From: Planctomycetaceae bacterium
GTDB lineage: Bacteria; Planctomycetota; Phycisphaerae; Sedimentisphaerales; UBA12454
DNA length: 64,000 bases
Assembly: GCA_021371795.1 (NCBI GenBank)
Contig: JAJFVK010000001.1
Coordinates: forward strand, 1 to 64,000
Direction of reading: 5' to 3'
Positions 17,492-43,378 of this stretch are shown here, in pieces. The notes below the pieces were generated by a model that saw only the letters and a list, made by a program, of their open reading frames with translations, did no database searches and was not told the DNA's origin. The number at the start of each line of letters is the position of its first letter. Position 1 is the stretch's first letter. The position numbers and the translations under genes were made by a program.

Positions 17492-18819
17492 CAGTACTGT
17501 CCCATTAACTTGAGACCTAATTAGTATAACTATTTTAGATATACAATGTTACAACAAAAAACAACTGTTATCGATTTGAACGGGCTGGTATCCTGCGGTG
17601 AGATTTTATTATCACCAATCAGGAGTAGCACGGCCAATGAACAACGAACGTACAGTGTTTTCGCAAATACTCGATTTTATTCCAATGCATCAATTCAGAA
17701 CTTGCGTAAATCGATACAATGGCAACCATCGAGTAAAATCTTTTTCATGTTTCGATCAATATCTAACGATGGCATTTGCACAGCTAACTTATCGCGAAAG
17801 CTTAAGAGATATAGAAACCTGTTTAAACGCTTTACAAGGCAAGCTCTATCACTGCGGCTTTCGTGGAAAAGTTTCTCGCAACAACCTCGCCAACTCCAAC
17901 GAAAAAAGAGACTGGCGAATATATCACGACTTTGCACAGGTTCTCATTTCCAAAGCAAGACAGCTTTATGCCAACGAAGACTTCGGTGTTACATTGAAAA
18001 ACACAGTCTATGCTCTGGATGCAACCGTTATCGATTTATGCCTGTCGTTATTCCCATGGGCTCAGCACCGCCGGCACAAAAGTGCGATAAAGCTGCATAC
18101 ACTGATGGACTTAAAAGGCTCTATACCTACGTTTGTACGCATTACAAGCGGTGCGGTGCACGAAACTACCATCTTTCCAACGATACCTCTGGAGGCCTCT
18201 GCCATATATGTAATGGACAAAGGTTACACAGACTTCGAAACATTATACAGTTTTTCAAAGAGCAACTGCTTCTTCATTATCAGAGCCAAAAGAAATACAG
18301 TTTATTATCGCCGGTGTTCTCATCCGATAGACAAGAGCAGCAGCATAAGAAGCGACCAGACAATCCAATTAACCGGCCCAAAAACTTCAAGACTTTACCC
18401 GATACCACTGAGACGAATTACTTTTCGAGACGAAGAACAGCATCGTACTTTTGTATTTCTGACCAATCATTTTCAACTGGACGCATTGACTATTTGTCAG
18501 CTTTACAAACTGCGATGGCAGATCGAATTATTCTTCAAATGGATCAAACAACACCTGCGGATAAAATCTTTTTTCGGAACTTCCATCAATGCAGTCAAGA
18601 CGCAAATATGGATAGCTATCAGTGTTTATGTGCTTGTGGCGATAATCAAAAAGGAATTGAAGCTGGAGCGTTCATTACACGAAATACTCCAAATTATAAG
18701 TGTCCTACTTTTCGAGAAAACACCGCTAAAACAAGCACTTACGGAAAATTATTATGATTTTAAAGAGCAACAAAACTATAACCAACTGTCCTTATTCAAC
18801 TTATAATGGGACAGTACTG
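17492..18819 (+). mobile_element. IS4-family insertion sequence (complete)
   Basis: An approximately 1.33-kb element bounded by perfect inverted repeats of CAGTACTGTCCCATTA (17492-17507 and 18804-18819). If the true ends are TGTCCC..., the flanks GTAC/GTAC would be a 4-bp target duplication; because GTAC is palindromic this cannot be separated from a longer terminal repeat. One intact transposase gene fills it. It lies in an intergenic position upstream of the island's first gene and marks the island's right border. Confidence 0.85.
17637..18806 (+). CDS. IS4-family transposase (DUF4372 + DDE domain)
   Basis: A 389-aa transposase. The N-terminal DUF4372 domain reads MNNERTVFSQILDFIP and FSCFDQYLTMAFAQLTYRES. 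The DDE core follows: first Asp in ALDATVID, second in VMDKGYTDF, and Glu in the IS4 signature Y-2-R-3-E-6-K (YKLRWQIELFFKWIK). The start at MNNERTVF was chosen by family pattern, with AGGAG 11 bases upstream; a GTG 13 codons earlier is possible. No frameshift is seen, so it may be active. Confidence 0.93.
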   Translation: MNNERTVFSQILDFIPMHQFRTCVNRYNGNHRVKSFSCFDQYLTMAFAQLTYRESLRDIETCLNALQGKLYHCGFRGKVSRNNLANSNEKRDWRIYHDFAQVLISKARQLYANEDFGVTLKNTVYALDATVIDLCLSLFPWAQHRRHKSAIKLHTLMDLKGSIPTFVRITSGAVHETTIFPTIPLEASAIYVMDKGYTDFETLYSFSKSNCFFIIRAKRNTVYYRRCSHPIDKSSSIRSDQTIQLTGPKTSRLYPIPLRRITFRDEEQHRTFVFLTNHFQLDALTICQLYKLRWQIELFFKWIKQHLRIKSFFGTSINAVKTQIWIAISVYVLVAIIKKELKLERSLHEILQIISVLLFEKTPLKQALTENYYDFKEQQNYNQLSLFNL

Positions 18820-21112: not shown

Positions 21113-21841
21113 TTATTTTCGTCTAATTTTGAAAAGCAAAATTCCGCCGGCGAGTATTGCGAGAGTAGAAGGTTCAGGAATAAACATCAGAGTACTATCC
21201 GGAGATGTACCCAAACCAAACACCGCAGAGTTCAAAACATCAGATTCAGCAAAACCTGTTACGCCGGAGAATGTAAACGTGATTGTATTCAAAACAAACA
21301 GCCTGTCGTTCAGACTCTGGGTCGCGACATCGCCGGCATAAATCGAGTAGTCTATTCCGCCGACAATGTTGCCGGGGAAATTATTTGTCATAGTCGAATT
21401 GCCGACCGTCCCCACGCCAAAGCCGAGATACGGATTGGCTGCCGCGTTGAACGCTGAAAAATACCATGTGTCGTCCTTTTTCGCGACGGCTTTTAAATCC
21501 GCATTGGCTGTTTGCAATGTGTCGGTTGAATTTTCATCCGTCTTGTAAACATCGCCGGTCGCAGACAGAAGCACAAGCTCCGGCCGCTGACCGATGCTGT
21601 TGTAAATGTCAAAATAATAACTGCTCAACAAATCGTCGGGACTGTTGGAGGCAGTCGTCGAGAGATTTGAAAGTCTGACCGTCAGTATGTCGCCGGAGAT
21701 TGCCATCTGCGATTCTAAAATCACCGCGTCGCCGGTAATTGAAACGCCTTCGACATGCTGAATGATGTTAGCTTCCGATTGAGCAGATAATAACATCAGC
21801 AATACAACGCAAAATACAGTTATAAACGCAATCTTTTTCAT
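21113..21841 (-). CDS. PEP-CTERM secreted protein (unknown fold)
   Basis: A 242-aa protein with an N-terminal signal peptide (IAFITVFCVVLLMLLSAQSEA). A beta-rich body follows, with residues such as ISGDILTVRLSNLS and LFVLNTITFTFSGVTGF that resemble cohesin/TNF-like exoproteins of planctomycetes. The C-terminal sorting signal is IPEPSTLAILAGGILLFKIRRK read as PEP motif, helix and basic tail. An exosortase would cleave the tail and anchor the protein at the surface. The exact fold is not recognised. Confidence 0.85.
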   Translation of the reverse strand: MKKIAFITVFCVVLLMLLSAQSEANIIQHVEGVSITGDAVILESQMAISGDILTVRLSNLSTTASNSPDDLLSSYYFDIYNSIGQRPELVLLSATGDVYKTDENSTDTLQTANADLKAVAKKDDTWYFSAFNAAANPYLGFGVGTVGNSTMTNNFPGNIVGGIDYSIYAGDVATQSLNDRLFVLNTITFTFSGVTGFAESDVLNSAVFGLGTSPDSTLMFIPEPSTLAILAGGILLFKIRRK

Positions 21842-30282: not shown

Positions 30283-30501
30283 ACTTAATTGGTAAAAGTC
30301 GTTGGCTTGGGATGCTATAAAAAGATGCGTAAGGCAGGTGTAAGTTTAGTCCACCCTTACGACCTCGTTTCAGCATGTCTTTTCTGCGCTTCTATCCTGA
30401 CATTAAAATGGCCTTTTTTATTTGGTTTTTACTACGATTTAGTGTATTATAAGGGTAGTAAGCTAAAATGGGGGTTGTCTGTTAGACAGGATAGGCAATT
30501 T

Positions 30502-31500
30502 ATGAGTAGAAAAAAATCTGCAACGCCCAAAAGCTGTTTTTGGGATGAATCAAAGAACTGTTATTTGCGACTAATTGAAAATTCGACAGATGTATTTTAT
30601 CTGATAGACGCCAAAACAAGTGAGGTTAAATATGTCAGTCCGGCTTCAACAGCTATCAGCGGTTTCACGCCTGAAGAAGTAATAAAAATGGGTTTTGAAG
30701 GAACACGCCAAAGATTCCATCCTGACGACCTGGAAACCATAGATTATAAAATCAGGGATATACTTACGCAAAAAAAACAGCCGAAAAATTTTGACGGATA
30801 CCTCGAAAAACGATTCCGGCATAAGGACGGCCACTGGGTATGGTTCGGCATAAGCAGGAATTTCATGGTTGATAAGAATGGTGAAATCGAAGCGATAGTC
30901 GGCACAATCCGCGATGTTACCGAAGTAAAAACGTTACAACAAAAATTAGAAACCTCATTGAATAATTACAAAGCTCTGTACAATAATGCCAGAGTAGCAT
31001 TATTCAGAACTCAAATCAGCGATGGTAAGCTGCTGGAATGCAATGAAGCGCTGGTAAGAATACTCGGTTATGAAAACCGGCAGGAATGCCTTGTGCATCA
31101 CAAATCAACAAATTTCTACGCAGACCTGAAACGCCGGTCCGAACTGTTGGCTGTTTTAAATGAAAAGGGATACATTGATAATTTTGAGATAAAAGCCAGA
31201 CGATTGACCGGCGAACTTTTCTGGATGAGAGTGTCCGCCGCGATAAATCGAGATGAAAACTATATGGAGGGTGTAATGTCTGACATCACCGCGTATAAAA
31301 TATTGACCAAAACAGAAAATGACATCCTCGCGATGGTAATGGAAGGCAAAAGCAATAAACAAATCGCCGCCGAGTCGCTGCGTTCCATCCGAACGGTCGA
31401 AGAACACCGCGCTAATATAATGCGAAAATTGGGGGCGACAAATCTTGTGGAACTGACGCAAAAAGCGATAAATTATGGTGCCGCAGTGCAAAAAATATAA
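30502..31500 (+). CDS. PAS-PAS-LuxR transcription regulator
   Basis: A 332-aa protein starting MSRKKSATPKSCFWDE; AGGATAGGC lies upstream, and earlier codons in the same frame encode no recognisable sequence. It has a PAS domain (SPASTAISGFTPEEVIKMG; KDGHWVWFGISRNFM; IVGTIRDVTE as PAC) and a second PAS (YNNARVALFRTQISDGKLLE...ILGYENRQE; MEGVMSDITAYK). A LuxR/FixJ-type helix-turn-helix (SNKQIAAESLRSIRTVEEHR, KLGATNLVEL) follows. There is no receiver domain, so it is probably a one-component sensor, with signal unknown. Confidence 0.88.
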   Translation: MSRKKSATPKSCFWDESKNCYLRLIENSTDVFYLIDAKTSEVKYVSPASTAISGFTPEEVIKMGFEGTRQRFHPDDLETIDYKIRDILTQKKQPKNFDGYLEKRFRHKDGHWVWFGISRNFMVDKNGEIEAIVGTIRDVTEVKTLQQKLETSLNNYKALYNNARVALFRTQISDGKLLECNEALVRILGYENRQECLVHHKSTNFYADLKRRSELLAVLNEKGYIDNFEIKARRLTGELFWMRVSAAINRDENYMEGVMSDITAYKILTKTENDILAMVMEGKSNKQIAAESLRSIRTVEEHRANIMRKLGATNLVELTQKAINYGAAVQKI

Positions 31501-31856
31501 AAAAAATATATATTTTCAGCCAAAACCCTGTTTTCCGGTATAAAAACCGGTTCCTAACCTCTTCCCCGTATTTACCACAATTGAATATATGTAAAACTCT
31601 CGTTACAATCGTTCGTGTTGATGGGTTGGGGGCAGAGAGATTTTTGCCGGTGCCGCTTCAGCGGAAAGGTACGAAGACGCATCAGATTATCGGATGCGAT
31701 AAAAGTTGTGCTCGCAACATAGGGCATAAGTGGAAGCAAAGGCTGTTCTGATGAGCCAGAGTTTGGTTCTATTCTCTGGTAAATCAAAGCAGCTTTTTTG
31801 TTAGTTAAGGTTATCTCTAAAAATAGCATCCGATGTCATTTTTTTTAGAGAGAACC
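31501..31856. other. Non-coding stretch with two hairpins
   Basis: No credible gene. A perfect CCGGT-ATAAAA-ACCGG hairpin at 31537-31552 may end the PAS-LuxR transcript, though no T-run follows. At 31813-31855, TCTCTAAAAA and TTTTTTAGAGA form an inverted repeat just beyond the terminase stop and could be its terminator on the minus strand. The 85-codon minus frame in between has no ribosome site or known content. Confidence 0.45.
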
Positions 31857-33320
31857 TTAATATCTCCTGTCTTTGGCAGTTCCCATACAATAATAATTCA
31901 TAAAGAAATACCGCAGCGCATCTATCGGATGGTCGTACACACCGTCTTTCTGCGGCGTTTCAATCGAGCCGCTGACAGGATAATGATAACTCTGCATCGC
32001 TTCAATCAATCTGCCGCAACGGGGATTCACAACGAAATTGCTTTTGCCGTCGCCGGTTCGCAACGCCCTTCTGACAAGTTCAACACCGTCGAGTATCGCG
32101 CTTTTTCTAAAACGAAGTTTTACGCCCGCTTTGCGCAACTGACTGACAGGACTTGTGCCCGTAACATCATTCACGCCAACACCGGCAGGATCGCAAAATG
32201 TCATAATTACATTGCTCTCGCTGTACGGCTTTCTATTTTTAATCTCCTCGGCGTGCGCATCAATCGTCTTTCTGCTCTGAATATACTCGTCAATGACCCT
32301 GATTGTTCCGCTGCCATCGACCTGAATCCACAGGCAAACAAACGGATTTACAAAACCAAAATCAATCGTCCGATACAGCGGTAAATCAGGATTATATTCC
32401 ACAGGCGCGATATGAATATTCGGCTTGAACTCCGCGAACACTACATTCTCAAGCGAAGGCGTTAAACAAAGCATTTCAGATTCAAACGCCGCCCTGCTGC
32501 AACGCCGCATTTGTGCAATTACATCATCTATTTTTAAATAGCCTTTCGCCCGCCTTGCAACGCCTCGGCAGTCATCGTTCAGCGGACATTGACCGCACGA
32601 ACGGTCTTTGCAGTTTTCTATCACTTCCCAGATACACCATTTGAAAATTCTGATTTTGCTTTCCTGCGATTTGCCGACAAGCTCGTGCATAATGCCGAAC
32701 GGCTGGTGCATTGTGCTCAAGGTTTCCATCGCGGCGACAATACCATTATTCGTTTTGGTTGTGAATTTCGCAGCTTCAAAAATCTGCTTTTTGAAAAGCT
32801 CAACTTCATCGCAGCGAAGTTTGTGGATATGACTGCCGCGAACCGAAGCCATTGATTGCGTCAGTACTTCGACATTTGAGCCATTCGTAAAAATACATTT
32901 ATCTTTTTTCTCATCCGCGATAAATTCTTCAAAGCCGTTGTACACAAAGCCAAGCAGATAATCATACATCCGCTGCGCCTGTGTCTGACTGCCGGCAAGG
33001 ATTCGCGTTTTGCAGCCGGGCTTGAAAATACTGTCTAAAAGAGTCGCGGCCGCGGCAAGATAAGTTTTTCCGCCGCCACGGCCGGCCCAGACGACACAAT
33101 CACCGCTTGCGCTGCCGTCAAAATCGCTGTTGAAGCTGTGCCATAAATAATCCATTGGTGAATCGTGAGCGGGACAAATTTTCGAATCGCTGACGTTCAA
33201 ATCCAGACATACTGAAAGATAATTTTTCAAATCGGCGCGCGTTTTCGGCCTGTGCTTTTTTATTGATTGAAAAATCCTGTTCGCTTTTGAAATACGTCGC
33301 GGCGATAAAGCAGTAGTCAT
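31857..33320 (-). CDS. Orphan phage-type terminase large subunit
   Basis: A complete 487-aa packaging motor protein. Walker A is WAGRGGGKTYLAAAA at about residue 85 and Walker B-like LRCDEVELF. The RNase H-like nuclease domain has acidic residues in YRTIDFGFVNPF, VIMTFCDPAGVG and YDHPIDALRYF. Between the domains is a four-Cys motif (CKDRSCGQCPLNDDC: C-4-C-2-C-5-C) that could bind zinc or an iron-sulfur cluster. No portal, capsid or tail genes are near. The small-terminase-like and ParB-like genes lie 9 kb away. It is next to rnpB, a conserved chromosomal gene. It could be a prophage relic or a domesticated packaging enzyme. Confidence 0.9.
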   Translation of the reverse strand: MTTALSPRRISKANRIFQSIKKHRPKTRADLKNYLSVCLDLNVSDSKICPAHDSPMDYLWHSFNSDFDGSASGDCVVWAGRGGGKTYLAAAATLLDSIFKPGCKTRILAGSQTQAQRMYDYLLGFVYNGFEEFIADEKKDKCIFTNGSNVEVLTQSMASVRGSHIHKLRCDEVELFKKQIFEAAKFTTKTNNGIVAAMETLSTMHQPFGIMHELVGKSQESKIRIFKWCIWEVIENCKDRSCGQCPLNDDCRGVARRAKGYLKIDDVIAQMRRCSRAAFESEMLCLTPSLENVVFAEFKPNIHIAPVEYNPDLPLYRTIDFGFVNPFVCLWIQVDGSGTIRVIDEYIQSRKTIDAHAEEIKNRKPYSESNVIMTFCDPAGVGVNDVTGTSPVSQLRKAGVKLRFRKSAILDGVELVRRALRTGDGKSNFVVNPRCGRLIEAMQSYHYPVSGSIETPQKDGVYDHPIDALRYFFMNYYCMGTAKDRRY

Positions 33321-33358
33321 AAAAGTTCCTTAAAAAAAATGAAAAAAGGGGATGTAAC

Positions 33359-33490
33359 AATTGAAGATGGAAGAATGAAGATTGAAGATTGTTTATTCGC
33401 AAATTCTTCCCCCTCTGATTTTTGCGTTCAAAGAGCAAAAATCCTAAAGATTCGGGGGTCTTCGACAATCTACAATCTTCAATTTTGAAT
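33359..33490. repeat. Modular palindromic repeat with CCCCTCTGA core
   Basis: Left arm AATTGAAGATGGAAGAATGA and right arm ACAATCTACAATCTTCAATT are imperfect reverse complements. Between them, at 33409-33458, is a 50-bp hairpin module CCCCCTCTGATTTTTGC...GCAAAAATCCTAAAGATTCGGGGG. The region lies between the divergent terminase and rnpB genes. Confidence 0.75.
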
Positions 33491-33576
33491 CAGGCGGGTA
33501 TTATACCATAAAGAGGGCTAAAAATCAAGTATAAAGCGTTGAAAAGGGTATTTTACGCAAAATTAACAATGAAAAA

Positions 33577-33605
33577 TTGCACATTTTTGCAAAATAGCGT
33601 ATAAT
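33577..33605 (+). promoter_or_regulatory. rnpB promoter
   Basis: TTGCAC (33577-33582), a 17-base spacer and perfect TATAAT (33600-33605), about 10 bases before the inferred 5' end of RNase P RNA. Confidence 0.85.
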
Positions 33606-33615
33606 TACAATGATG

Positions 33616-33996
33616 AAAATTTGTCCGTTGCGTCGGGCGACCGTCCAGTGACATTTAAATGTCGCTGGGAGGAAAGTCCGGGCAGAACAGGGCGCGGTGA
33701 TGGCTAACGGCCACCGATTTGAGAAATCAGATAAGGGAAAGTGCAACAGAAAATAAACCGCCTTCGGGTAAGGGTGAAAAGGTGCGGTAAGAGCGCACCG
33801 CGATTGCGGCGACGTAATCGGCACGGCAAACCCCACCGTCTGCAAGGCCAAGTATGCTGAAATGCTTTGCCCGAGCGTTACTTCAGCGGGTAGGCTGCTT
33901 GAGCCTGTGAGCAATCGCAGGCCCAGATAAATGGTTGCCTCTCATCTTAACAGGTGAAAGACAGAACCCGGCTTATAGACGCACCGGACAAATTTT
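33616..33996 (+). ncRNA. rnpB: RNase P RNA (type A)
   Basis: The catalytic RNA that trims tRNA 5' leaders. The closing helix P1 pairs AATTTGTCCGTTGCGTC at the 5' end with GACGCACCGGACAAATT at the 3' end. Conserved core sequences are present: GAGGAAAGTCCGGGC near 33670 and ACAGAACCCGGCTTATAG near 33961-33978, with GGTAAGAGCGCACC and GGCAAACCCC in between. The length (~380 nt) and layout fit bacterial type A. Confidence 0.97.
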
Positions 33997-34000
33997 CATA

Positions 34001-34798
34001 TTATTTTCTTTTCCTTAAAACAGCCAAACCAAAACTCAACATCAATATTGTCGTCGGTTCAGGTATCGCAATAAAATCCTGCGGAGAAACAAAATTATCA
34101 GAAAAACGAATCCTGTCGATAAGGCCGTTCCAAACTTCATAAGAAGAGCTTCCCATATGTGAACCAATCAGCAACAGGCCGGTATCGCCTTCCGGCACAG
34201 CGCCGCTAAGATTCACAAACACCGTGGCAATAGGGTCAACTGAATCAAGATACATATTCAATATGCCTTCGCCGGCGTCATAAGCAATCGCATAATGGTG
34301 CATTTGGCCATCGGTTAGAATTTCCTTATAATCATCATAGCTCATCCACGGGCCGCCATTGTCAATGTGCCAGTGCGGCGGAGCGGAGGTACCATCGTTA
34401 ACCCCTGAACCCCAATAAACAAACGCTTCATCCGGTATGACATAACCGATCAACGGCTGCCAGTACCACGGGTCGGAATGAAGGCTCGTAATCGCTTCGA
34501 TTGTGAAACTGCCGGTGAGCAAATTTCTGGCGACAATGGCGGACTGAATATATTCGCAAAGGCCGCCTTTAACCAAACGAAGCATACCATTTGAAGTATA
34601 ACCGGCATTGGCGATGTCATCGGCGTAGCCCATTTCATAATTTGTAAAGCCGAAGAGAGTGCCATCGTTGCCGTTGCCTGATGAGTCGATCGCCACCGTA
34701 TCGTCCGACTCATCGAAACAATAATCCGCGATAACCGCGGCCATTCCAGAGCTGCCGGCCATCAGAAGAACTAACAATGCCACAGATAGAGATTTCAT
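34001..34798 (-). CDS. PEP-CTERM protein with LamG domain
   Basis: 265 aa. A signal peptide (LSVALLVLLMAGSSGMAA) is followed by a LamG/concanavalin-type domain (DYCFDESDDTVAIDSSGNGNDGTL, FTIEAITSLHS, HHYAIAYDAGEGILNMYLD, LLLIGSHMGSSSYEVWNGLIDRIRFSD) and the sorting tail IPEPTTILMLSFGLAVLRKRK (PEP, helix, basic end). It probably binds glycans on the cell surface. Its stop lies only about 5 bases from the 3' end of rnpB, convergent. It is the last of seven PEP-CTERM genes in a row. Confidence 0.9.
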   Translation of the reverse strand: MKSLSVALLVLLMAGSSGMAAVIADYCFDESDDTVAIDSSGNGNDGTLFGFTNYEMGYADDIANAGYTSNGMLRLVKGGLCEYIQSAIVARNLLTGSFTIEAITSLHSDPWYWQPLIGYVIPDEAFVYWGSGVNDGTSAPPHWHIDNGGPWMSYDDYKEILTDGQMHHYAIAYDAGEGILNMYLDSVDPIATVFVNLSGAVPEGDTGLLLIGSHMGSSSYEVWNGLIDRIRFSDNFVSPQDFIAIPEPTTILMLSFGLAVLRKRK

Positions 34799-34827
34799 TG
34801 TCGTCTCCTTTCAATAAAAACTTCTTC

Positions 34828-35940
34828 TCAATTGTTTTTGTTTATTTTTTTTCGGCGAACAAAACCCAAAACGCCGAGACCCAACAGACAAATCGTTGCA
34901 GGTTCGGGAACAGGTATCATATCAAAACTTGCGGTCGTTGTATCGAATTCGAGCTGGAGCGGAAAACCAAGTTCGTCTTCAGCATCCACCAGCGGATTTA
35001 TTCCGCGAACCGTGAACTCCGAAACGCCTGCGCCGAGCAGTGATACAAAATCAACACTGTCGCCTGCGCCAAACGTGCCGAGCGAGACTCCGTTTACCAA
35101 CACTTGCATCGCGGCATCAAAGCCGGTTGGAAATGCACCGATTTTTGTGAACAGCGAACCGGAAGTCATTTGATATTCAAATTCGCTCACGAACGGCGGG
35201 TCAAACCAGTAACCGCTTTGCGCATTGGCGAACGAAAAACCGCCGCCCTGAATTTCATCATCCGGCAAAATCGCGTATTCCTGAATCATACCACGATATA
35301 AATCCGGCGAATATTCGAGATGGCCGATAAGGTCAAGCGACAGCAAAATGCCGGACTGATTGGAGCTAAGGTCGCTTACGCTTTTAAGTTCCAAACCAAC
35401 CGTCGAAGTTTTTGGTATTTCGAGAATTCCACCGACAACGCCTGTGCCGCTGATGCCGCACTGCTGAAGAATTTGGCCGGTAGTCATATCACGAACGACA
35501 AGCGTTCCTTCGCCGAACGCACCGGTCAGACCATACTGCTGCTTGTAGTTTCCGGAATCGTACTGGTCAAATCTGTCAATCACCACGCGCACGGGAACAG
35601 TTTGGCCGGCAACGCCGGTGCCGGACAAGCCAGCGGTAAATCGTCCCCACGATGAATAATAAGGATATTCCTGCCACACTACCGCCGTGCTTGTCATTAC
35701 CCTCAAACCAGAATAAAAAGTACTCAAAGCATTGTGCATTCCCCAGTTAATATTGCCCCAGTAGGTGAATGTTTCTTCTTTCCATCCGTAAGAACGAAGG
35801 GCTTTGGTATAGCGGACCGTGTTCTCGTAACTACTATTAAGTGAATTCCACGTCGGCCCCGCTGCCGCCACTGCTTGTACGGAATTGGCAAAAAATCCCA
35901 ACAGCACCACAACCAAACATACAAAAATTACTCTCTTCAT
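34828..35940 (-). CDS. PEP-CTERM secreted protein, large, unknown fold
   Basis: 370 aa. The start at 35940 has AGGGAG 7 bases upstream. The signal peptide is VIFVCLVVVLLGFFANSVQA. The long mature part is rich in Gly, Thr, Ser and aromatic residues (FTAGLSGTGVAGQTVPVRVV, GTLVVRDMTTGQILQQCGI). The tail is VPEPATICLLGLGVLGFVRRKK. The body is probably all-beta; no known domain recognised. Only 29 bases separate it from the next LamG gene, so they may be co-transcribed. Confidence 0.85.
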   Translation of the reverse strand: MKRVIFVCLVVVLLGFFANSVQAVAAAGPTWNSLNSSYENTVRYTKALRSYGWKEETFTYWGNINWGMHNALSTFYSGLRVMTSTAVVWQEYPYYSSWGRFTAGLSGTGVAGQTVPVRVVIDRFDQYDSGNYKQQYGLTGAFGEGTLVVRDMTTGQILQQCGISGTGVVGGILEIPKTSTVGLELKSVSDLSSNQSGILLSLDLIGHLEYSPDLYRGMIQEYAILPDDEIQGGGFSFANAQSGYWFDPPFVSEFEYQMTSGSLFTKIGAFPTGFDAAMQVLVNGVSLGTFGAGDSVDFVSLLGAGVSEFTVRGINPLVDAEDELGFPLQLEFDTTTASFDMIPVPEPATICLLGLGVLGFVRRKKINKNN

Positions 35941-36233
35941 AATCATCTCCCTAATTTTTGTTTCTATTTCTTCTTCTAATTAGAACAACTCCGAGCAGAT
36001 AAATCCTAATATTCGCCCACAAATACGATAGAGTTTAACTAATTGTTACTAAAAAGAGGATTGAACTCAAAATTGCATAAAAACAAAAACGATGTGTTAT
36101 TTCCACTATCCTTCTTTGTACCCATAACTTCTTTCTCCTATGTTAGAATAATTATGATTATTCCGTCACACAGCAGCAAACCACGAAGTTAAGCATAAAT
36201 TGTTTTTTTCGTCTTGTCCACCAAAATTATTTT
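35941..36233. other. Non-coding, AT-rich spacer
   Basis: Contains the ribosome site of the gene to its left and probably that gene's promoter (AT-rich, several TATNAT-like words on the minus strand). No gene, clear promoter or strong hairpin is evident. Confidence 0.4.
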
Positions 36234-37361
36234 TTATTTTCGCCTTCTCCGGGACGAAAAAAAGAACATTCCCGCGGCAATCAGCATCGCAGTTGTCGGC
36301 TCCGGAACCTGCCAAAGCACCGCATGATAAGTGCCTGCATTACTATCATAAGCATAACCTACGACATTGCCCAAAGAATCGATTGATTCGGCGTAAGATG
36401 ATGTATAATTACTCGATAAAAACGAATGCAAGTCAACAAAATTGCCCACAGAACTATTCCAAAGCAAAGCGTGATGTACGCCTGTGGCTGTAGTTCCTTC
36501 GCCGACCTGTTGTTTGCCATTGGTTGCATAAGCGCCAGAAGCTTTAAAACCATCAGGATTCAAATCAATATAACTTGCCGCTGAACCGCTCCAAAGAAGT
36601 GCGTGGTCGCCGGTACTGCTGGTTCCATAACCAACCTGCTGCGAACTGCTGATGCCCAATGCGTAAGATGCGCTGTAACCGGTAATCGGATGCAAATCGA
36701 CATAACCGCTCTTTGTTCCGCTCCAAAGTATTGCGCGAAACTGATTGCTCGTTGCAGTGCCTGAACCATAACCAACCTGCTGCGAACCATTTGTTGCATT
36801 TGCAGCGGAACTTGTAAAACCAATAGGATTCAAATCTACAACGCTCGCCGATGTTCCGCTCCAGAGCAGCGCGTGGTCGCCGGTACTGCTTGTGCCGGAG
36901 CCAACCTGCTGCGTACCGTTAATACCATACGCTATGGATGAAATGTAACCGCTCGATGGATGCAAATCGACGTAACTGCTGTTTGTTCCGTTCCAGAGCA
37001 TCGCATGAGATTTATTGGTAGTTGAATAAAATGCCGCACCGGCCTGCTGCGAACCGCTTATTGCGTAACCATAAGAATTTACGTAACCGCTTGCCGGATG
37101 TAAATCAACATAACCCAACGCAGAACTATTCCAAAGTAGTGCGTGCTTTATTCCGCCTGTGGTGCCGTAGCCGACCTGCTGCGAACTGCCGCTGCCCTTG
37201 CCTCTTGTGTTGATAAATCCCGCAGGATTCAAATCAATTACCGTATAACTGACAGCCTGCACAACGGTGCAAGATAAACATCCAAAGATAAAAGACAGTG
37301 CTAAAATTTTGCGGAATGTTTCCCCGATTCTTTTTTCACTGCGCCAATTTGCATTCGACAT
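36234..37361 (-). CDS. HAF-repeat PEP-CTERM protein
   Basis: 375 aa. A signal peptide (LALSFIFGCLSCTVVQA) is followed by seven tandem repeats of ~46 residues. Their consensus is HALLWSGTxxSYVDLxPxxG then xxSxAYAIxGxQQVGxGTxxTG, which matches the HAF extracellular repeat family (six- or seven-bladed propeller-like). The tail is VPEPTTAMLIAAGMFFFSSRRRRK. DNA of the repeats is also conserved, which suggests recent duplication. GGAG lies upstream of the ATG and a TATAAT box lies on the minus strand at 37428-37423. The function of HAF proteins is unknown. Confidence 0.92.
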   Translation of the reverse strand: MSNANWRSEKRIGETFRKILALSFIFGCLSCTVVQAVSYTVIDLNPAGFINTRGKGSGSSQQVGYGTTGGIKHALLWNSSALGYVDLHPASGYVNSYGYAISGSQQAGAAFYSTTNKSHAMLWNGTNSSYVDLHPSSGYISSIAYGINGTQQVGSGTSSTGDHALLWSGTSASVVDLNPIGFTSSAANATNGSQQVGYGSGTATSNQFRAILWSGTKSGYVDLHPITGYSASYALGISSSQQVGYGTSSTGDHALLWSGSAASYIDLNPDGFKASGAYATNGKQQVGEGTTATGVHHALLWNSSVGNFVDLHSFLSSNYTSSYAESIDSLGNVVGYAYDSNAGTYHAVLWQVPEPTTAMLIAAGMFFFSSRRRRK

Positions 37362-37536
37362 TGTGAGTTTTCTCCGTAAAACAAATTTTGCCTATCTGAT
37401 TAGCCAAAACATTGATTGCGGAATTATACCATATACACACCCACACACATACAGTTTTTCTACTGTTGTTTTTCTTTATACACCACTCCTATGACCGCTG
37501 CGAAACTTTACCGAGCAGGCAAAACAGGTAATTTAA

Positions 37537-38232
37537 TTATTTCTTTTTTGCCGCTGTAAACAACATTCCCAACGCAAGAATCGCAATCGTTGCCGGTTCG
37601 GGAATAACGGCCAATGCTGCAATTTCTCCAGCAGTGAGCGTGCCGCTGAAAATATACAAATCGTCGATATTGCCATTAAAGTATTCTCCATGATAACTGA
37701 ACTGGCAACCCAGCCTTGTGTCGCTGCCGCCGGTAGTCATTCCGATAGAACCGAAGGTTTTAATCAGAGAACCATCAACGTACAATCGCGTGTCGACACC
37801 TTTCGTAACTGCGTAGTGATGGACAAGCCCGTCACTCGGAAACGGAACGCCGGTAGATGTCAAGTTGTCGCCAATTCGGAAATTGTGCGATGGGTCAGTT
37901 CCTACATAAAAGCCTGGGCCGCCGGAATATCCCTGCGAGATAATCTCCGTCCAGGTTGTCTTCGGTGAAAGTTCCTGTGCAAAAAAGGCGACAGAAAAGT
38001 TGCCGGTCGTTGGAATTATATGCTGGCTGAACTGGACATAGTCATTAACGCCGTCCAAATTAAGTTTCCCGAGCGAAACTGATGCTCCATTTAATAGCGT
38101 CCCGTTTGCGGCACCGACTAAATCGATAACGGCAGAGCCGTCAAACGTGTAGTGATGAAGCGCCGAGGCAGCATAAGCCCCTGTTGCAAAAAGCAGCCAC
38201 ATTCCAACTATGATTTTTACTTTTACCTTCAT
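37537..38232 (-). CDS. PEP-CTERM protein with LamG domain
   Basis: 231 aa with the start at MKVKVKIIVGMW (AGGGAGGG just upstream); earlier codons in the frame have no ribosome site. Signal peptide, then a single LamG domain (LHHYTFDGSAVIDLVGAANG, LNLDGVNDYVQFSQ, FSVAFFAQE, HHYAVTKGVDTRLYVDGSL, FNGNIDDLYIFSGTL), then the tail IPEPATIAILALGMLFTAAKKK. It is smaller than its LamG neighbours. It is probably a surface glycan-binding protein. Confidence 0.9.
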   Translation of the reverse strand: MKVKVKIIVGMWLLFATGAYAASALHHYTFDGSAVIDLVGAANGTLLNGASVSLGKLNLDGVNDYVQFSQHIIPTTGNFSVAFFAQELSPKTTWTEIISQGYSGGPGFYVGTDPSHNFRIGDNLTSTGVPFPSDGLVHHYAVTKGVDTRLYVDGSLIKTFGSIGMTTGGSDTRLGCQFSYHGEYFNGNIDDLYIFSGTLTAGEIAALAVIPEPATIAILALGMLFTAAKKK

Positions 38233-38283
38233 AATATTTCCCTCCCTTGAGATATTGTTCTTTCTCAACAAAATCTTACTCAT

Positions 38284-38892
38284 TTAAAAAACTCTGCTTT
38301 TTCGCAGCATTATTCCGCCGATGCAGAGCAATGCAATCGTCGCCGGTTCGGGAATCACTTCTGCCGCCAGCGAATAATTTCTTCCTCTTCCGCCATCGCC
38401 CATATCGGAGGACGGAATAATTCCGTTGATTGAAACATCATGGGCAGTAGTAGGCCAGTTGAGCGAGTAAATATAGTTCCCATTTTCAACATAATCAAAA
38501 ACTATTGACCGCTTTGCCAAATACGTCGGGCCGTTATAGTGAAACCCCAGCATATCGCCGGCCTGAATATCAATCTGTTGTGTTTCGGCAACAGCTAATG
38601 TAACGCTGCCGGTGCTTGAAAGCGTAAAAACATTTTGCCCAATCAGTTGATAGCCGCCTGATACAGGTCTGAAAACCTGCAGCTTGACATAATTGTCAAC
38701 CATAACAGGAGAGACATACAAGTACCATTGCGAGATTTTACCGCTTATCTGCGAAGGCATACCGGTATTAATAAAAGTTATTGACCACGCCTGGTCAACC
38801 TGACTGCGATAAACCGCATCGTCGCCCCACATAACGCCATACGATACGGTACTTAATACCATTAGTATAATGACCGTTAATAACTTTCTCAC
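38284..38892 (-). CDS. PEP-CTERM secreted protein, unknown fold
   Basis: 202 aa: signal peptide (LLTVIILMVLSTVSYG), a beta-rich body (ISQWYLYVSPVMVDNYVKLQVFRPV, LIGQNVFTLSSTGSVTLAVAETQQIDIQAGDMLGFHYNG in pieces) and the tail IPEPATIALLCIGGIMLRK. The 'QIDIQAGDMLGFHY' stretch is typical of small all-beta planctomycete exoproteins of unknown function. It is part of the PEP-CTERM cluster. Confidence 0.85.
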   Translation of the reverse strand: MRKLLTVIILMVLSTVSYGVMWGDDAVYRSQVDQAWSITFINTGMPSQISGKISQWYLYVSPVMVDNYVKLQVFRPVSGGYQLIGQNVFTLSSTGSVTLAVAETQQIDIQAGDMLGFHYNGPTYLAKRSIVFDYVENGNYIYSLNWPTTAHDVSINGIIPSSDMGDGGRGRNYSLAAEVIPEPATIALLCIGGIMLRKSRVF

Positions 38893-38915
38893 AACACTTC
38901 CTCCTAAAAAACCAC

Positions 38916-39545
38916 TTACAATCTTTTTCTTGCGTACAATAATATGCCAAACCCAAGCAGCACAATCGTCGTCGGTTCGGGAACAAATGAAATATCATCG
39001 AGAGCAAAATCATTGCCGGGACTTCCGTTATTGCCGGTGGTTTCGCGGATAATTATTGCCGCAGCAACCGCACTGCCGGAATTCCAAACTTCAGTAAACT
39101 CCCGCCATTCGGAGGTGTTTGTCGGAACCTCATAATTGCCTATAACCGTGCCGTTTATTTCGAACTGCACATTGGAATATATTCCATAGAGATATATTTG
39201 CGCTATCCATGCGGAGAAAGTATAATCGGTATTTTGCGTAACGGCGACAGTTTCGCTCCAGCAGATTCGTCCTGCACCGCCGCCTGCGCCGCCTGAAGCA
39301 TCAATCATCATCATATTTCCGCTGCCGCTTGTATGGTCGCCAATGGAAACATAACCGCCATCCCAGTCATCAGGATTTGTACCTACATAATAAAGCCATG
39401 GAGATGTACCGCTCGGATTGTAGTGATACTCCGTCGTATAACCATATACGCCCTGCTCGAAATCGCCGTTGACAATCAAATTCGCATTTACGTTGCAGAC
39501 TGTCATAACTAAAATCGCAACTACCGCCAAAAACTTTGTTCTCAT
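38916..39545 (-). CDS. PEP-CTERM protein with carbohydrate-binding-like domain
   Basis: 209 aa. The start at 39545 has GGAGG upstream. After the signal peptide (FLAVVAILVMTVCNVNA) comes NLIVNGDFEQGVYGY, a typical opening of DUF642/CBM-like jelly-roll domains. TDYTFSAWIAQIY, VQFEINGTVIGNYEVP and FALDDISFVP follow, then the tail PEPTTIVLLGFGILLYARKR. It probably binds polysaccharide. No catalytic residues can be assigned. Confidence 0.87.
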   Translation of the reverse strand: MRTKFLAVVAILVMTVCNVNANLIVNGDFEQGVYGYTTEYHYNPSGTSPWLYYVGTNPDDWDGGYVSIGDHTSGSGNMMMIDASGGAGGGAGRICWSETVAVTQNTDYTFSAWIAQIYLYGIYSNVQFEINGTVIGNYEVPTNTSEWREFTEVWNSGSAVAAAIIIRETTGNNGSPGNDFALDDISFVPEPTTIVLLGFGILLYARKRL

Positions 39546-39576
39546 TTTTTCCTCCATAAATTTTTTATAACAATGT

Positions 39577-40272
39577 TTATTTTCTTCTGCGTAAACTCAA
39601 GATTCCAAAACCAAGCAGCGCAATCGTCGCCGGCTCCGGAATAACTGTAATTGTCAATTCCAGTCCAAGCATATCGCCGAGATTTCCGCTTTCGCTTATC
39701 GATGTAAACAGAAGGTCTATCGTTTGTCCCTGCTCGATTGCGAAAGTTAAAACGCCGGCGCCGCCGGAGCCTTGCAAAAACAGAACGGGAGTAGCTGACC
39801 CCTGATTGCCATTCGAATAAAGCGTTCCGCCGGCAATGTTTGCGCCATCATATCGCAAATTCCAACCCATCGTCCGGTTGTAAAAATCTGTGGTCCACAC
39901 CGCACCGCTGATTGTTACGATTCCGTCTTCAGGACTTGTCCAGCGGACAAATGTAACGTTCGAACCGGTACGGTCATATTCCGCTCCGTGCATATAGACG
40001 ACGCCGTCGATATCACTCTTATACCAAACCGGAACGTGAGCGTTTAACTGAAAAACCTGGTCTGCCCAGGCATTTTGACCGTTGCCATTATTAAGGTAAT
40101 CGGATTGATTGATGGTGAATAAACTGGTTGTGTTTTTGTACAGCGACCAAACTCCCATTGGATTAACTATATCGCTCCAGTCATTCGCAAGATTGTACAC
40201 TGCCGCATTAGCTGCGCTAACTGCACAGACAAACGCTAACAATACGACTCCCACAGACAATAACTTCCGCAT
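39577..40272 (-). CDS. PEP-CTERM secreted protein, first gene of the cluster
   Basis: 231 aa: signal peptide (LLSVGVVLLAFVCAVSAANA), a beta-rich domain (YNLANDWSDIVNPMGVWSLYK, VVYMHGAEYDRTGSNVTFVRW, GIVTISGAVW, GGAGVLTFAIEQGQTIDLLF) and the tail IPEPATIALLGFGILSLRRRK. 'Y-L..D-WSD..NP.G.WS' recalls a planctomycete exoprotein family seen next to other PEP-CTERM genes. AAGGAG lies 8-10 bases before the ATG. Confidence 0.87.
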   Translation of the reverse strand: MRKLLSVGVVLLAFVCAVSAANAAVYNLANDWSDIVNPMGVWSLYKNTTSLFTINQSDYLNNGNGQNAWADQVFQLNAHVPVWYKSDIDGVVYMHGAEYDRTGSNVTFVRWTSPEDGIVTISGAVWTTDFYNRTMGWNLRYDGANIAGGTLYSNGNQGSATPVLFLQGSGGAGVLTFAIEQGQTIDLLFTSISESGNLGDMLGLELTITVIPEPATIALLGFGILSLRRRK

Positions 40273-40525
40273 GTTTCCTGCTCCTTAAAACAAAAAAAAT
40301 GCTGATAAACATTCAATCGCTACAAACAGGAAAAAAGAAATGATAAATAGACGCGCACGCACGCCAACAACTTCCTTCGCCCTGTCCAGAGACCCAAACA
40401 AGTAAATCCAAGTCTCCACTCCCAAGGGGACATTTTATGCCATAAGTCCTATAAAATTCAAGTTAAAAATAGAACAAATTGGCAAATCCGGTAAAATCGC
40501 TCGCAACTATTTACAAATAAATAGC
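40273..40525. other. Non-coding region before the PEP-CTERM cluster
   Basis: This should hold the promoter of the PEP-CTERM genes (minus strand). No good -35/-10 pair and no sigma-54 box was found. The minus strand carries a purine-rich, GC-richer segment (about 40340-40435) with a possible weak hairpin. Nothing else is supported. Confidence 0.35.
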
Positions 40526-41968
40526 TTATGTACCCAAATCAGCTTCAACAGCCGGAACATTAGGCATAGTGCCCGGCAATGTCGGTACTTTTTCGATTAC
40601 TCGCATCGTTTTCCATTTGCCGGACAGAAAACGCAGCAGGAACAAAATCGCCAGCGCACAAACATACCCCGCAAGCGCAGCCCATGCGACATACAGCCGA
40701 GCCTGCCCCTGCAAATGAGTTACCGCAAACCAACTTGGAATAACCATAATCAGCCAGTTGAGCCAGATTGAGCGGTACATTACGTATTTTGTATCGCCTG
40801 CGCCTTTTAACGCAGCGGAAAAAATAATATTACCGGTATCGAAGATGCAGTAGAAGCTCACGAAATAAAGCAGCGTTTTCGCGATTGGTCTGATTGCGTC
40901 CATCTGCTCTTTCAAAGCGCCGAGTCCGAACGGCAGCATAAACAAATCCGGCACAAGCCAATAACTGGCAGCAATGACAATCATATAACCGAACGTCAGC
41001 TTCGCAGCCGACCATGTAGTCTTCTGCGCAATGTGCGGTTTTTCAGCGCCTATTGCCCTGCCGACAAGAATGCTTGTCGCCATACCGAAACCAATCATCG
41101 GCATAAACGCCAGCATATTAATTTGAAATACCATCGATGAAGCCGCGAACGAAACAGCATCGATTCTTCCGATGAAAACAACAAACAGCGTAAAACCCAA
41201 AACATCGAGCATAAACTGCACGCCACTCGGAAAGCCGTATTTCATCAGTCTGCCAAAAAGCTCTTTGTCGAAACGGTTGTTGAGCGTTCCGAATTTTTCA
41301 CGATAACTCGGCCACAGGAAAATCACAAAATAAATCACACACGATACAACATTCGCAAGTATCGTCGCTACTGCCGCGCCGGCCACGCCCCATTTCGGAA
41401 AACCAAAATGCCCAAAAATCATCGCGTAATCGAACACGACATTGATGATTGTTTTAAGTAAATTAATCCACATCACGACCCACGTTTTGCCTCTGCCGGT
41501 CAGGAAGCAGGAAATCGCCGAATCGAGAATGCCGGGCATTGCGCCCAAAAGCATAAACCTGTAATAGGTCAGTTCATATTCGTTAATCGGCGGCTTATGG
41601 CCGATTAGAGCTATCAAAGGTTTGTCAAACAAAGCAAACCCAGCCATCATCAGACCGGCTGCGAACGCGAAATATGCGCTCTGCCAAATCGCAGGGCCGA
41701 TTCGATGCTGCATTTTCGCGCCGTCATACTGCGAAACGAAAGTGCCCGCGTAAGTGGCGGTGCCGAGAAACAGACTGAACGGAACAAAACTTAAAACGCC
41801 GCCCATCATCGCTCCGCTCATCGCGTCGCGGTCGAACCACATCAGGAACATACGGTCAACGAACATTTGCACCGTCATCGCAGAAGTGCTTAATATCAGC
41901 GGAACCGCGATTTTAAACACTTCGCTGCATCCGCCTTCGTTCATATTTTTGTCAGTTAAATTTTCCAT
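40526..41968 (-). CDS. MATE-family efflux transporter
   Basis: 480 aa with the start MENLTDKNMNEGG; the 38 codons before it are made of the AT-rich repeat and have no ribosome site. There are twelve membrane helices with MATE hallmarks: FKIAVPLILSTSAMTVQMFVDRMFL, a second half starting LFGRLMKYGFPSGVQFML, and MIGFGMATSILVGRAIGAEKP. It exports cationic drugs or metabolites by Na+ or H+ antiport. It is a single gene, divergent from the HI0933-type gene. Confidence 0.92.
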   Translation of the reverse strand: MENLTDKNMNEGGCSEVFKIAVPLILSTSAMTVQMFVDRMFLMWFDRDAMSGAMMGGVLSFVPFSLFLGTATYAGTFVSQYDGAKMQHRIGPAIWQSAYFAFAAGLMMAGFALFDKPLIALIGHKPPINEYELTYYRFMLLGAMPGILDSAISCFLTGRGKTWVVMWINLLKTIINVVFDYAMIFGHFGFPKWGVAGAAVATILANVVSCVIYFVIFLWPSYREKFGTLNNRFDKELFGRLMKYGFPSGVQFMLDVLGFTLFVVFIGRIDAVSFAASSMVFQINMLAFMPMIGFGMATSILVGRAIGAEKPHIAQKTTWSAAKLTFGYMIVIAASYWLVPDLFMLPFGLGALKEQMDAIRPIAKTLLYFVSFYCIFDTGNIIFSAALKGAGDTKYVMYRSIWLNWLIMVIPSWFAVTHLQGQARLYVAWAALAGYVCALAILFLLRFLSGKWKTMRVIEKVPTLPGTMPNVPAVEADLGT

Positions 41969-41983
41969 TGGTCGTATATAATA

Positions 41984-42112
41984 CAAATTAAATATCAAAA
42001 TGTAAAAATCAAAATGACAAATCAAAATGCAAAAATAACCCGCAGTTGGTCTCATTTTGAATTTTAAATTGTCATTTTGCATTTTAATTTTTGATTTTTG
42101 ATATATAATTCA
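41984..42112. repeat. Long AT-rich palindrome between divergent genes
   Basis: The left half (ATATCAAAATGTAAAAATCA, then ATGACAAATCAAAATGCAAA) is largely the reverse complement of the right half (TTGTCATTTTGCATTTTAAT, then TTTTTGATTTTTGATATATA). The two surround a short CCCGCAGTTGGTCTC centre (42040-42054). It belongs to the dispersed non-coding repeats and occupies the promoter space of two genes. Confidence 0.8.
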
Positions 42113-42145
42113 TTCAACACATATATAATTTCAGATTGGTTAATT

Positions 42146-43378
42146 ATGGTAGATACTGACATAGCAATAATTGGGGCCGGGCCTGCCGGAATGCTGGCGG
42201 CAATCACCGCGGCTCAAAACGGCGGAAAAGTCGCACTTTTCGAGGCAAATACCTCCGCTGGCAGAAAACTGCTCGTTACAGGCGGCGGCAGGTGTAACCT
42301 CACTCACGCCGGCAAACCAGACGAGATAATAAAGACTTTCACGCCTTTCGAGCGGTTCGTTCGCCACTGCATTTACGAATTTCCGCCGACAAAGGTAGTG
42401 GAATTTTTCAAAGACCGCGGCCTGGACAGCGCACCCGACGAAGACAACTGCGTTTTCCCAGTTACAAATTCCGCTTCGGATGTTAATAATATTCTGCTTG
42501 CCGAATTGCAAAAAAATGATGTACAAATTTACTACGGCAAAAAAATTCAGACCATCACAAGAGAAAATGATTTGTTTATTATCCCCTGCGGGAAATTTAC
42601 CGTTTCAGCGAAATCACTAATCATCGCAACCGGCGGCGTAAGCTGGCCGCAGACAGGTTCGACCGGCGACGGGTATAAATTCGCCTCGGCGCTCGGCCAT
42701 AAAATTGTCGAGCCGATTGCTGCGCTGGTTCCGCTGATAGCGGACGAAAAATTCTGTGTCGAGCTTGCCGGATTGGGACTCCCAAAGGTTTCGATAAGCT
42801 GCAAGATAAATAACAGGAAATTCACATCGACCGGCGCAATGCTTTTCACGCATCACGGAATCGGAGGCCCTGCTGTCTTTGATTTGAGCAGAAATGTCGC
42901 CGGCATTTCGGGAAATAATTACAAAGTATCAATCGATTTTATGCCGGAAATAAAAGCTGAAGATTTAGACAAAAAACTTACCAAGCTTTTCGCCCAAACG
43001 CCAAAGCGGAGTGTCGAGCAGATTATGTCGCAATTCTTCTCCAAAGCGATGGCGAATATAATCTGTCAGCAGAGCGATATTTTGAAAACGCCCGCAGGAC
43101 AGGTAAATAAAAAATCACGTCAAAATCTCGTTGAAACTTTGAAAAATTTTCCGCTGACGATTACTTCCACACATGAAATAGAACGTGCAACGGTTACTCG
43201 CGGCGGAGTCGATACCGCCGAGATTGACAGCAAGACGATGCAGTCCAAAATCGTCAAGGGCATGTTCTTTGCCGGCGAGGTAATGAACGTTGACGGCCCC
43301 TGCGGCGGATATAATCTACAATTCGCGTTCGCAAGCGGTTTTATAGCTGGAAAATCATCTGTGGAGATGCTAAAATAA
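42146..43378 (+). CDS. HI0933/YhiN-family flavoprotein
   Basis: A 410-aa NAD(P)/FAD-dependent oxidoreductase. The dinucleotide motif IAIIGAGPAGMLAA is near the N-terminus, with VTGGGRCNLTHAGK following. ATGGVSWPQTGSTGDGY lies in the middle, and GEVMNVDGPCGGYNLQFAFASG at the C-terminus. These are all family signatures. The biological substrate of the family is unknown. The start MVDTDIAIIGAG is chosen by alignment; there is no ribosome site at the upstream codon. It is followed after 28 bases by a hypothetical protein and then trxB. Confidence 0.9.
   Translation: MVDTDIAIIGAGPAGMLAAITAAQNGGKVALFEANTSAGRKLLVTGGGRCNLTHAGKPDEIIKTFTPFERFVRHCIYEFPPTKVVEFFKDRGLDSAPDEDNCVFPVTNSASDVNNILLAELQKNDVQIYYGKKIQTITRENDLFIIPCGKFTVSAKSLIIATGGVSWPQTGSTGDGYKFASALGHKIVEPIAALVPLIADEKFCVELAGLGLPKVSISCKINNRKFTSTGAMLFTHHGIGGPAVFDLSRNVAGISGNNYKVSIDFMPEIKAEDLDKKLTKLFAQTPKRSVEQIMSQFFSKAMANIICQQSDILKTPAGQVNKKSRQNLVETLKNFPLTITSTHEIERATVTRGGVDTAEIDSKTMQSKIVKGMFFAGEVMNVDGPCGGYNLQFAFASGFIAGKSSVEMLK

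Follow-up and report, generated by a model that had tools for sequence, protein, structure and literature searches.

A block of seven PEP-CTERM genes in a variable slot between rnpB and a MATE transporter gene in a Planctomycetaceae genome

A row of genes whose products share a C-terminal sorting signal and little else raises the questions of which enzyme serves them and how they came to stand together. The window analysed here, a 64,000-nucleotide stretch of a Planctomycetaceae bacterium genome, contains at positions 34001–40272 seven consecutive minus-strand open reading frames of 202–375 amino acids, each with a PEP motif, a hydrophobic stretch and a basic end at its C terminus. All seven proteins score above the 16-bit cut-off of the PEP_CTERM model TIGR02595 (18.4–24.0 bits); PF07589 also matches all of them, its cut-off of 20.7 being passed by three in the protein scan and by six in the genome scan. 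Each protein has a hydrophobic segment, a candidate secretion signal, near its N terminus (best 12-residue hydropathy of 2.19–3.48, with start codons picked partly by the same hydropathy). A tail profile, trained on tails of this genome from other contigs only and run against window ORFs of at least 60 amino acids, retrieved 8 of 238 at E ≤ 1: the seven block genes and a gene outside the block (21113–21841, minus strand), which encodes a similarly tailed surface protein of the XDD4 family of exosortase-dependent proteins (NF045504, 132.9 bits, cut-off 40).

The bodies in front of these tails have the composition expected of PEP-CTERM proteins, rich in Ser, Thr and Asn and poor in Cys and basic residues: 10.4% Ser, 7.7% Thr, 5.7% Asn, 0.4% Cys and 3.4% Lys plus Arg, compared with 5.8, 5.7, 4.4, 1.2 and 11.8% in 20 other, hand-picked window proteins. 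Comparison of the seven bodies with one another yielded no match at E ≤ 1 × 10−3 (best E of 0.16), and no named PEP-CTERM subfamily exceeded its cut-off for any of the seven proteins. The original prediction of neighbouring, mostly unrelated proteins with a common sorting tail is thus borne out. A 49-nt repeat family (D2) in the block corresponds to the tail-coding stretch.

Read in the direction of transcription, the block begins with P7 (39577–40272, 231 amino acids, TIGR02595 19.8 bits), whose body has matches in 3 of 161 genomes of the order, its own included, as in all such counts below. P6 (38916–39545, 209 amino acids from an ATG with a ribosome site, 22.2 bits) was predicted to be DUF642-like and instead matches CBM_4_9, itself below cut-off (23.7 against 25.9 bits), with body matches in 6 of 161 genomes. 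P5 (38284–38892, 202 amino acids, GTG start after AGGAGG, 19.3 bits) has a near-orphan body found in 2 of 161; single-sequence structure models of P7 and P5 were poor (mean pLDDT of 46.9 and 35.8 for the pair). The predicted LamG fold is present in two proteins, P4 (37537–38232, 231 amino acids, 18.6 bits), with a LamG/concanavalin-like body (PF13385, 64.0 bits), and P1 (34001–34798, 265 amino acids, 18.4 bits; PF13385, 37.2 bits). These two bodies are uninformative on descent because they match so widely, P4 in 128 and P1 in 63 of the 161 genomes. P3 (36234–37361, 375 amino acids, 24.0 bits) displays the clear internal repeats of the HAF type proposed for it, although TIGR02913 remains below cut-off (18.1 against 22.65). 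P2 (34828–35940, 370 amino acids, 23.4 bits) has body matches in 5 of 161 genomes. A P2 relative from a different family of the order (41%) lacks the PEP tail. Among the P2 relatives in G143, G138, G133 and G093, the first two carry a dockerin-like C-terminal stretch where the PEP tail would be; as Pfam Dockerin_1 scores 14.3 bits (cut-off 22.9) in one of these and nothing in the other, exchange of tails is mentioned here as no more than a side remark. The bodies of P2, P5, P6 and P7 found no match in six other genomes of the genus and six of the family, and PDB sequence searches with P6, P4 and P2 returned one believable, weak match, P4 to 4qvs (E of 2 × 10−4).

The exosortase expected to display these proteins was predicted to lie outside the window. 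A search of the genome (97.95% complete, 28 contigs) found a single match, on another contig (C7:4795–5580; PF09721, 184.5 bits; TIGR02602, 140.8 bits against 105.55). Residues C211, R256 and H277 are invariant across nine aligned exosortases, out of 32 matches; we take this Cys, Arg and His to be catalytic. The enzyme is of no named type among those listed, scoring 144.2 bits against the XrtA model TIGR03109 (cut-off 208) and at best 156 of 425 (XrtW) against the others. Its neighbours, comprising a Poly_export/SLBB gene, a TPR gene, an EpsI-like DUF3485 gene (21.9 bits, under the cut-off of 26.1) and an AAA/Wzz gene (Wzz 24.2 against a cut-off of 25.5), mark a polysaccharide-export locus. 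An exosortase was also found in all 20 relatives examined.

The genome has about 60 PEP-CTERM genes, and eight same-strand arrays with gaps of less than 1,500 nt account for 31 of these. This count derives from 62 matches, 10 of them below the Pfam cut-off and several of these retained, after removal of an ABC-transporter-like match judged by eye (C8:168814) and a duplicate frame with two motifs. The idea of one exosortase for this cassette holds in so far as the genome has a single match; since that enzyme would have to serve roughly 60 tails, the block is not its special set. Uniform random placement of 60 genes on 2.85 Mb never put seven within 6.3 kb in 20,000 runs (largest group, five), a test that is silent on the cause of clustering. 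On their own, the seven genes are ordinary for an exosortase/PEP-CTERM system: the block is a standard set of known kind, and what is new is its chromosomal position.

That position is bordered on one side by rnpB, encoding class A RNase P RNA (33625–33991, plus strand; RF00010, 291.6 bits), whose end helix extends to 33999, one base from the P1 stop codon, and on the other by a MATE-family transporter gene (40526–42082, minus strand; PF01554, 136.2 bits). The rnpB and MATE genes are neighbours on one contig in all seven genus members compared, every assembly being in several contigs. The interval between them contains seven PEP-CTERM genes here (G000), two unrelated ones in G001, two in G005 and a radical-SAM gene in G006, so occupancy of the slot is not limited to PEP-CTERM genes; it is empty in G002, G003 and G004. 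The original term 'cassette' fits in the sense of a slot whose content varies among relatives, but not as the exosortase's private set. Bodies of slot proteins from different species match one another at a best E of 0.36, never over more than 23 residues. Relatives of one slot protein from G005 are encoded in arrays of G002 (E of 1.9 × 10−40) and G037 (E of 6.4 × 10−37), and such genes therefore do occupy other arrays.

The segment between the MATE stop codon and P7 (40273–40525, minus strand) is a leader conserved in G001 and G005, with a core at 40329–40474 and a promoter-like TTGAAT-18-TAAAAT at 40461–40432. It precedes unrelated genes in three of the four occupied slots, those of G000, G001 and G005. 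Alignment of the three leaders gives 92 invariant columns, compared with a mean of 49.6 and a maximum of 73 for 60 random triplets, and a profile of any two finds the third (E of 4.6 × 10−4 for G000, 2.3 × 10−7 for G001 and 4.5 × 10−5 for G005), the next place in the 0.91 Mb searched having an E of at least 5.5. Pairwise scores are weaker than those of the set, being reached by 1 of 300 shuffles for G000–G001, 5 of 300 for G000–G005 and 1 of 300 for G001–G005. RNAalifold on the three sequences returns 20 pairs, 4 of them changed on both sides (−9.09 kcal/mol); three sequences being too thin a basis, we claim no conserved RNA structure. Because the MATE tree pairs G000 with G001 (0.997) and G004 with G005 (0.989), the leader appears to have been present in the common ancestor of these genomes and to have been lost in G004; the tree represents one protein, with G002, G003 and G006 unplaced (supports of 0.274 and 0.441).

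Across 140 sequences (0.91 Mb), including loci around this genome's own PEP-CTERM genes, the leader was found at the rnpB–MATE slot alone, and we therefore reject a regulon-wide role. No common upstream motif emerged from a search of the block genes. A scan for sigma-54 sites in the 200 nt upstream of PEP-CTERM genes, using a −24/−12 consensus and taking in coding sequence inside arrays, gave a best score of 7.54 against 7.46 for shuffled sequence, with none of 59 reaching 10 of 12; a PrsK/PrsR/RpoN regulon of the proteobacterial kind is unsupported. Nor does anything tie the PAS-LuxR gene at 30289–31500 to the block as its regulator, because its relatives, near terL in G001 and G003, sit where the slot has two and no PEP-CTERM genes, respectively. 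Intergenic gaps of 175 and 293 nt point to as many as three transcription units, P7–P4, P3 and P2–P1, so the block may not act as one unit.

We consider it probable that the block is a set of seven exosortase substrates in a variable rnpB–MATE slot whose leader has been kept while the genes behind it were replaced. PEP-CTERM sets count among the fastest evolving in the literature, and since their bodies evolve fast some of the apparently unrelated slot genes could be diverged homologues. An old, shared content that has merely diverged past recognition, with no replacement, would account for the leader common to G000, G001 and G005; we nevertheless regard it as unlikely, given that gene number differs (7, 2 and 2), that the between-species comparison found only the short, insignificant matches described above, and that domain matches differ, most of them being weak. 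Moreover, a PEP-CTERM body can stay recognizable: P3 is 54% identical to a relative beside gltA in G003, a genome whose MATE protein is 66% identical to that encoded here.

Other explanations of the block are judged improbable. Insertions commonly target genes for structural RNAs, and a mobile element or island inserted recently at rnpB could have delivered the seven genes in one piece, in keeping with the empty intervals of G002–G004 and with variation on both sides of rnpB, the far side carrying other large genes in G004, G005 and G002. Against this, neither an integrase or transposase among the listed ORFs nor a long flanking repeat was noticed within 31400–42300, block G+C (0.44–0.49) resembles that of the neighbours (0.39–0.47), and the leader appears older than the block. 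The terminase gene beside rnpB (31857–33320) probably does not mark a prophage border: homologues 72–75% identical over 479–489 residues adjoin rnpB in G001, G003 and G007, the last from another genus, so the gene looks resident rather than recently phage-derived. Growth of the array by one-gene duplication, followed by body replacement between a conserved signal sequence and tail, has a precedent in the array at C21:96248, where tails resemble one another (0.60) more than they do those elsewhere (0.42), and in the arrays taken together (0.502 within arrays, 0.394 between them; 0 of 2,000 shuffles); yet in the present array tail similarity is 0.39 both within the array and to the genome's other tails, and its seven bodies are without kinship. 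The genes are unidirectional, but an integron-like cassette array was rejected, as their spacing within the operon-like parts is 23–51 nt and the intergenic regions showed no recurring repeat.

Under the preferred reading, in which genes are exchanged behind a retained leader, each block protein would be secreted via Sec and stay anchored in the inner membrane through its C-terminal helix until the single exosortase cuts at or near PEP. The mature Ser/Thr-rich protein would then pass to the surface of the cell or into the exopolysaccharide matrix; there the LamG and CBM-like bodies may bind glycans. The slot would keep its leader and promoter-like site, from which the block may be expressed, as the protein genes behind it are swapped. 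A further, tentative possibility is that the rnpB–MATE junction acts as an expression slot, in which a fixed promoter and leader would drive whichever surface-protein genes are present, so that the PEP-CTERM coat could change between species by gene swap behind one control region, with one exosortase sorting all. The substrate set in its own slot looks like fast-changing surface-protein equipment of ordinary type. The locus ties a well-known yet poorly understood sorting system to a site where substrate sets differ between close relatives. Its natural series of 7, 2, 2 and 0 genes between the same flanks makes it possible to test how a PEP-CTERM set affects matrix, adhesion and niche, and the regulation of the conserved leader is likewise testable.

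The system agrees with the PEP-CTERM/exosortase (EpsH) system of Haft et al. 2006 (PMC1569441) in its putative signal segment and PEP, helix and basic end, in low-Cys, high-Ser/Thr bodies mostly without known relatives, in dozens of substrates per exosortase and in an exosortase that adjoins an EpsI-like gene within a polysaccharide locus. Haft et al. assign more than 65% of PEP-CTERM genes to operons of one gene preceded by long upstream stretches, unlike the 31 of 60 found here in same-strand arrays, and describe a sigma-54 type site for proteobacteria only, which is without enrichment here. With the gene-turnover hotspots beside core genes treated in 'The chromosomal organization of horizontal gene transfer' (PMC5635113), the slot shares fixed core flanks and accessory content that varies between relatives; unlike those hotspots, three of its four occupants belong to one functional class, PEP-CTERM proteins, behind a common upstream leader.

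Between the RNase P RNA gene rnpB (33625-33991; Rfam, 291.6 bits) and a MATE gene (40526-42082) lie seven consecutive open reading frames, all on the minus strand and spanning 34001-40272. In the direction of transcription these are P7 (39577-40272), P6 (38916-39545), P5 (38284-38892, with a GTG start), P4 (37537-38232), P3 (36234-37361), P2 (34828-35940) and P1 (34001-34798). With start codons picked by ribosome site and hydrophobicity, all seven have a hydrophobic start, for which the starts were thus partly chosen, and a PEP-CTERM end. Each passes the TIGR02595 cut-off, and a tail profile built from PEP-CTERM proteins encoded on other contigs of this genome matches just these seven and 21113-21841 among the 238 window ORFs, bearing out the original prediction of seven neighbouring PEP-CTERM genes. 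The folds it named fared unevenly: P1 and P4 have LamG bodies, the HAF-type repeats of P3 fall below cut-off and DUF642 is absent from the Pfam matches of the window proteins. P6 has a CBM_4_9-like body, also below cut-off, and the bodies of P2, P5 and P7 are of unknown kind. Within the block, body-to-body similarity reaches at best E 0.16 over 33 residues. Intergenic gaps of 175 and 293 nt suggest up to three transcription units. Read by eye, the P3-P2 gap holds a 28-codon small ORF (36039-36125, minus strand) after a ribosome-site-like AGGAG, a candidate remnant or leader peptide.

The seven proteins had been expected to share one exosortase encoded outside the window. A single exosortase was found in the genome (2.85 Mb, 28 contigs, 97.95% complete), at positions 4795-5580 of contig C7, so this is not a genome without the enzyme. 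It passes the general model TIGR02602 and reaches the cut-off of none of the named exosortase types whose models were scored. A Poly_export/SLBB gene precedes it, and after it come a DUF3485 gene (EpsI-like, below cut-off), one of TPR type and one of AAA type, the last with a weak Wzz match. Cys211, Arg256 and His277, which we take to be the catalytic residues, are invariant among nine aligned exosortases, and an exosortase was found in all 20 relatives examined besides the source genome. The 62 PEP-CTERM matches of that genome (52 above the Pfam cut-off) reduce to 60 genes, 31 of which sit in eight same-strand arrays with spacing below 1500 nt. The P1-P7 block is one of the two largest arrays, both of seven genes. 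Elsewhere in the genome, one 448-aa frame (C13:269979-271325) has two PEP-CTERM motifs, one of them internal, and is possibly a fusion of two substrates. The genus member G002 has 16 PEP-CTERM matches on one strand in an array reaching a contig end (C26:118342-132413); by eye, many members have similar starts (MKKLI..C) and tails, and several bodies are unrelated.

In all seven genus members examined, rnpB and the MATE gene are neighbours on one contig; MATE identities of 75-83% link the window to its genus mates G001, G004 and G005. The order terL - rnpB - MATE - FAD - 43k - trxB - gltA is kept in the fetched stretches, with insertions at several points; the G006 stretch covers just rnpB, MATE and FAD. 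What lies between rnpB and MATE differs. The source genome has its seven PEP-CTERM genes, G001 two (L078, 7822-8415 and 8441-9097), G005 two (L082, 10311-11051 and 11266-12009) and G006 a radical-SAM/B12 gene (L083, 820-2358). G002, G003 and G004 have none, with 16, 24 and 65 nt, respectively, between the rnpB and MATE matches; in G002 the distance is 7 nt when counted from the MATE stop. When slot protein bodies were compared between species, the best match had E 0.36 and the longest covered 23 residues. For one of the two G005 slot proteins, clear relatives occur in PEP-CTERM arrays, one in G002 (E 1.9e-40) and one in G037 (E 6.4e-37). In G007, from another genus, homologues of the window's 28 kb genes come after rnpB, and the genes beside MATE are, by eye, of nad type, so the junction may be particular to this genus.

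On the other side of rnpB, a phage-type terminase large subunit gene (terL, 31857-33320, minus strand) adjoins it in the source genome, G001, G003 and G007, and lies about 4 kb away in G004 and G005. These relatives are 69-75% identical; no further phage gene was noticed right beside the window copy, which is perhaps a domesticated terminase. This side also varies, with a large M6-peptidase/beta-propeller protein in G004 (L081:10617-14426), a propeller/RCC1 protein in G005 (L082:13093-16494) and, judging by eye, in G002 a similar protein accompanied by two kinases and one response regulator (L079:434-8499).

The 253-nt leader between the MATE stop and P7 (40273-40525) aligns with the same interval of G001 and G005. 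In this alignment 92 columns are invariant, whereas 60 first-order random triplets average 49.6 and never exceed 73. Pairwise similarity is modest, the scores being reached by 1, 5 and 1 of 300 shuffles (source-G001, source-G005 and G001-G005). A stronger test is a profile of two leaders searched against 0.91 Mb, with copies in overlapping loci set apart: in all three cases the left-out leader was the best match outside the training leaders (E 4.6e-4 at 40329-40474 in the source genome, 2.3e-7 in G001 and 4.5e-5 in G005), the next other place scoring E 5.5 or worse. The leader contains a promoter-like pair (40461-40432), and the G006 interval shares this promoter block with the source genome (local score 39, reached by 0 of 300 shuffles). 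Its similarity to G005 is weaker (8 of 300), and none was seen to G001 (108 of 300). A tree of the single MATE protein pairs the source genome with G001 (support 0.997) and G004 with G005 (0.989), placing G002, G003 and G006 weakly (0.274 and 0.441). Given these pairings, the simplest history would put the leader in the common ancestor of these four, with loss in G004 and changing genes behind it.

Body searches for the six proteins other than P3, with signal and tail removed, covered 161 genomes of the order, the source genome included in each count. P7 bodies occur in 3 (best-scoring other, 28% identity), P5 in 2 (the other at E 9.9e-4), P2 in 5 and P6 in 6 (best others 41% and 40%, each in a family other than that of the source genome); none of the four has a match in the 12 other genus and family genomes. 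The LamG bodies of P4 and P1 match 128 and 63 genomes. A narrower search for P3 gave a relative with 54% identity in G003 and a weaker match in G002; each sits next to gltA, 8-9 kb away from the slot. Such scattered occurrence is compatible with either acquisition from other parts of the order or loss from most members. No mobility gene was noticed among the ORFs around the block and no long repeat at its borders, and its base composition is unremarkable. Farther off, 17546-18806 (plus strand) holds, by eye, a transposase-like gene in two overlapping long frames of 402-403 aa. In other families, proteins related to the P2 and P7 bodies (L115:4949-6211, L120:3052-4638 and L119:1160-2557) lack the PEP tail and end in what we label a dockerin-like stretch, with weak Pfam support. 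This hints that sorting tails may be exchanged; a further relative of P7, found in G048, has the PEP tail.

In the accepted model, Sec exports PEP-CTERM proteins, their tail helix holds them, the exosortase processes them and they are then passed outside. P1-P7 would follow this route, and the LamG and CBM-like bodies would bind glycans of the matrix, the export genes for which lie next to that of the exosortase.

The exosortase/PEP-CTERM system itself is known. Haft et al. 2006 (PMC1569441) had earlier reported as many as 65 PEP-CTERM genes in a single genome, bodies lacking relatives and gene sets that vary between close species. In open-licence literature, judged by titles and openings, we found no paper describing an rnpB-MATE slot with a leader and changing PEP-CTERM genes; what is new, as far as searched, is the mapped slot with a shared leader and differing content.
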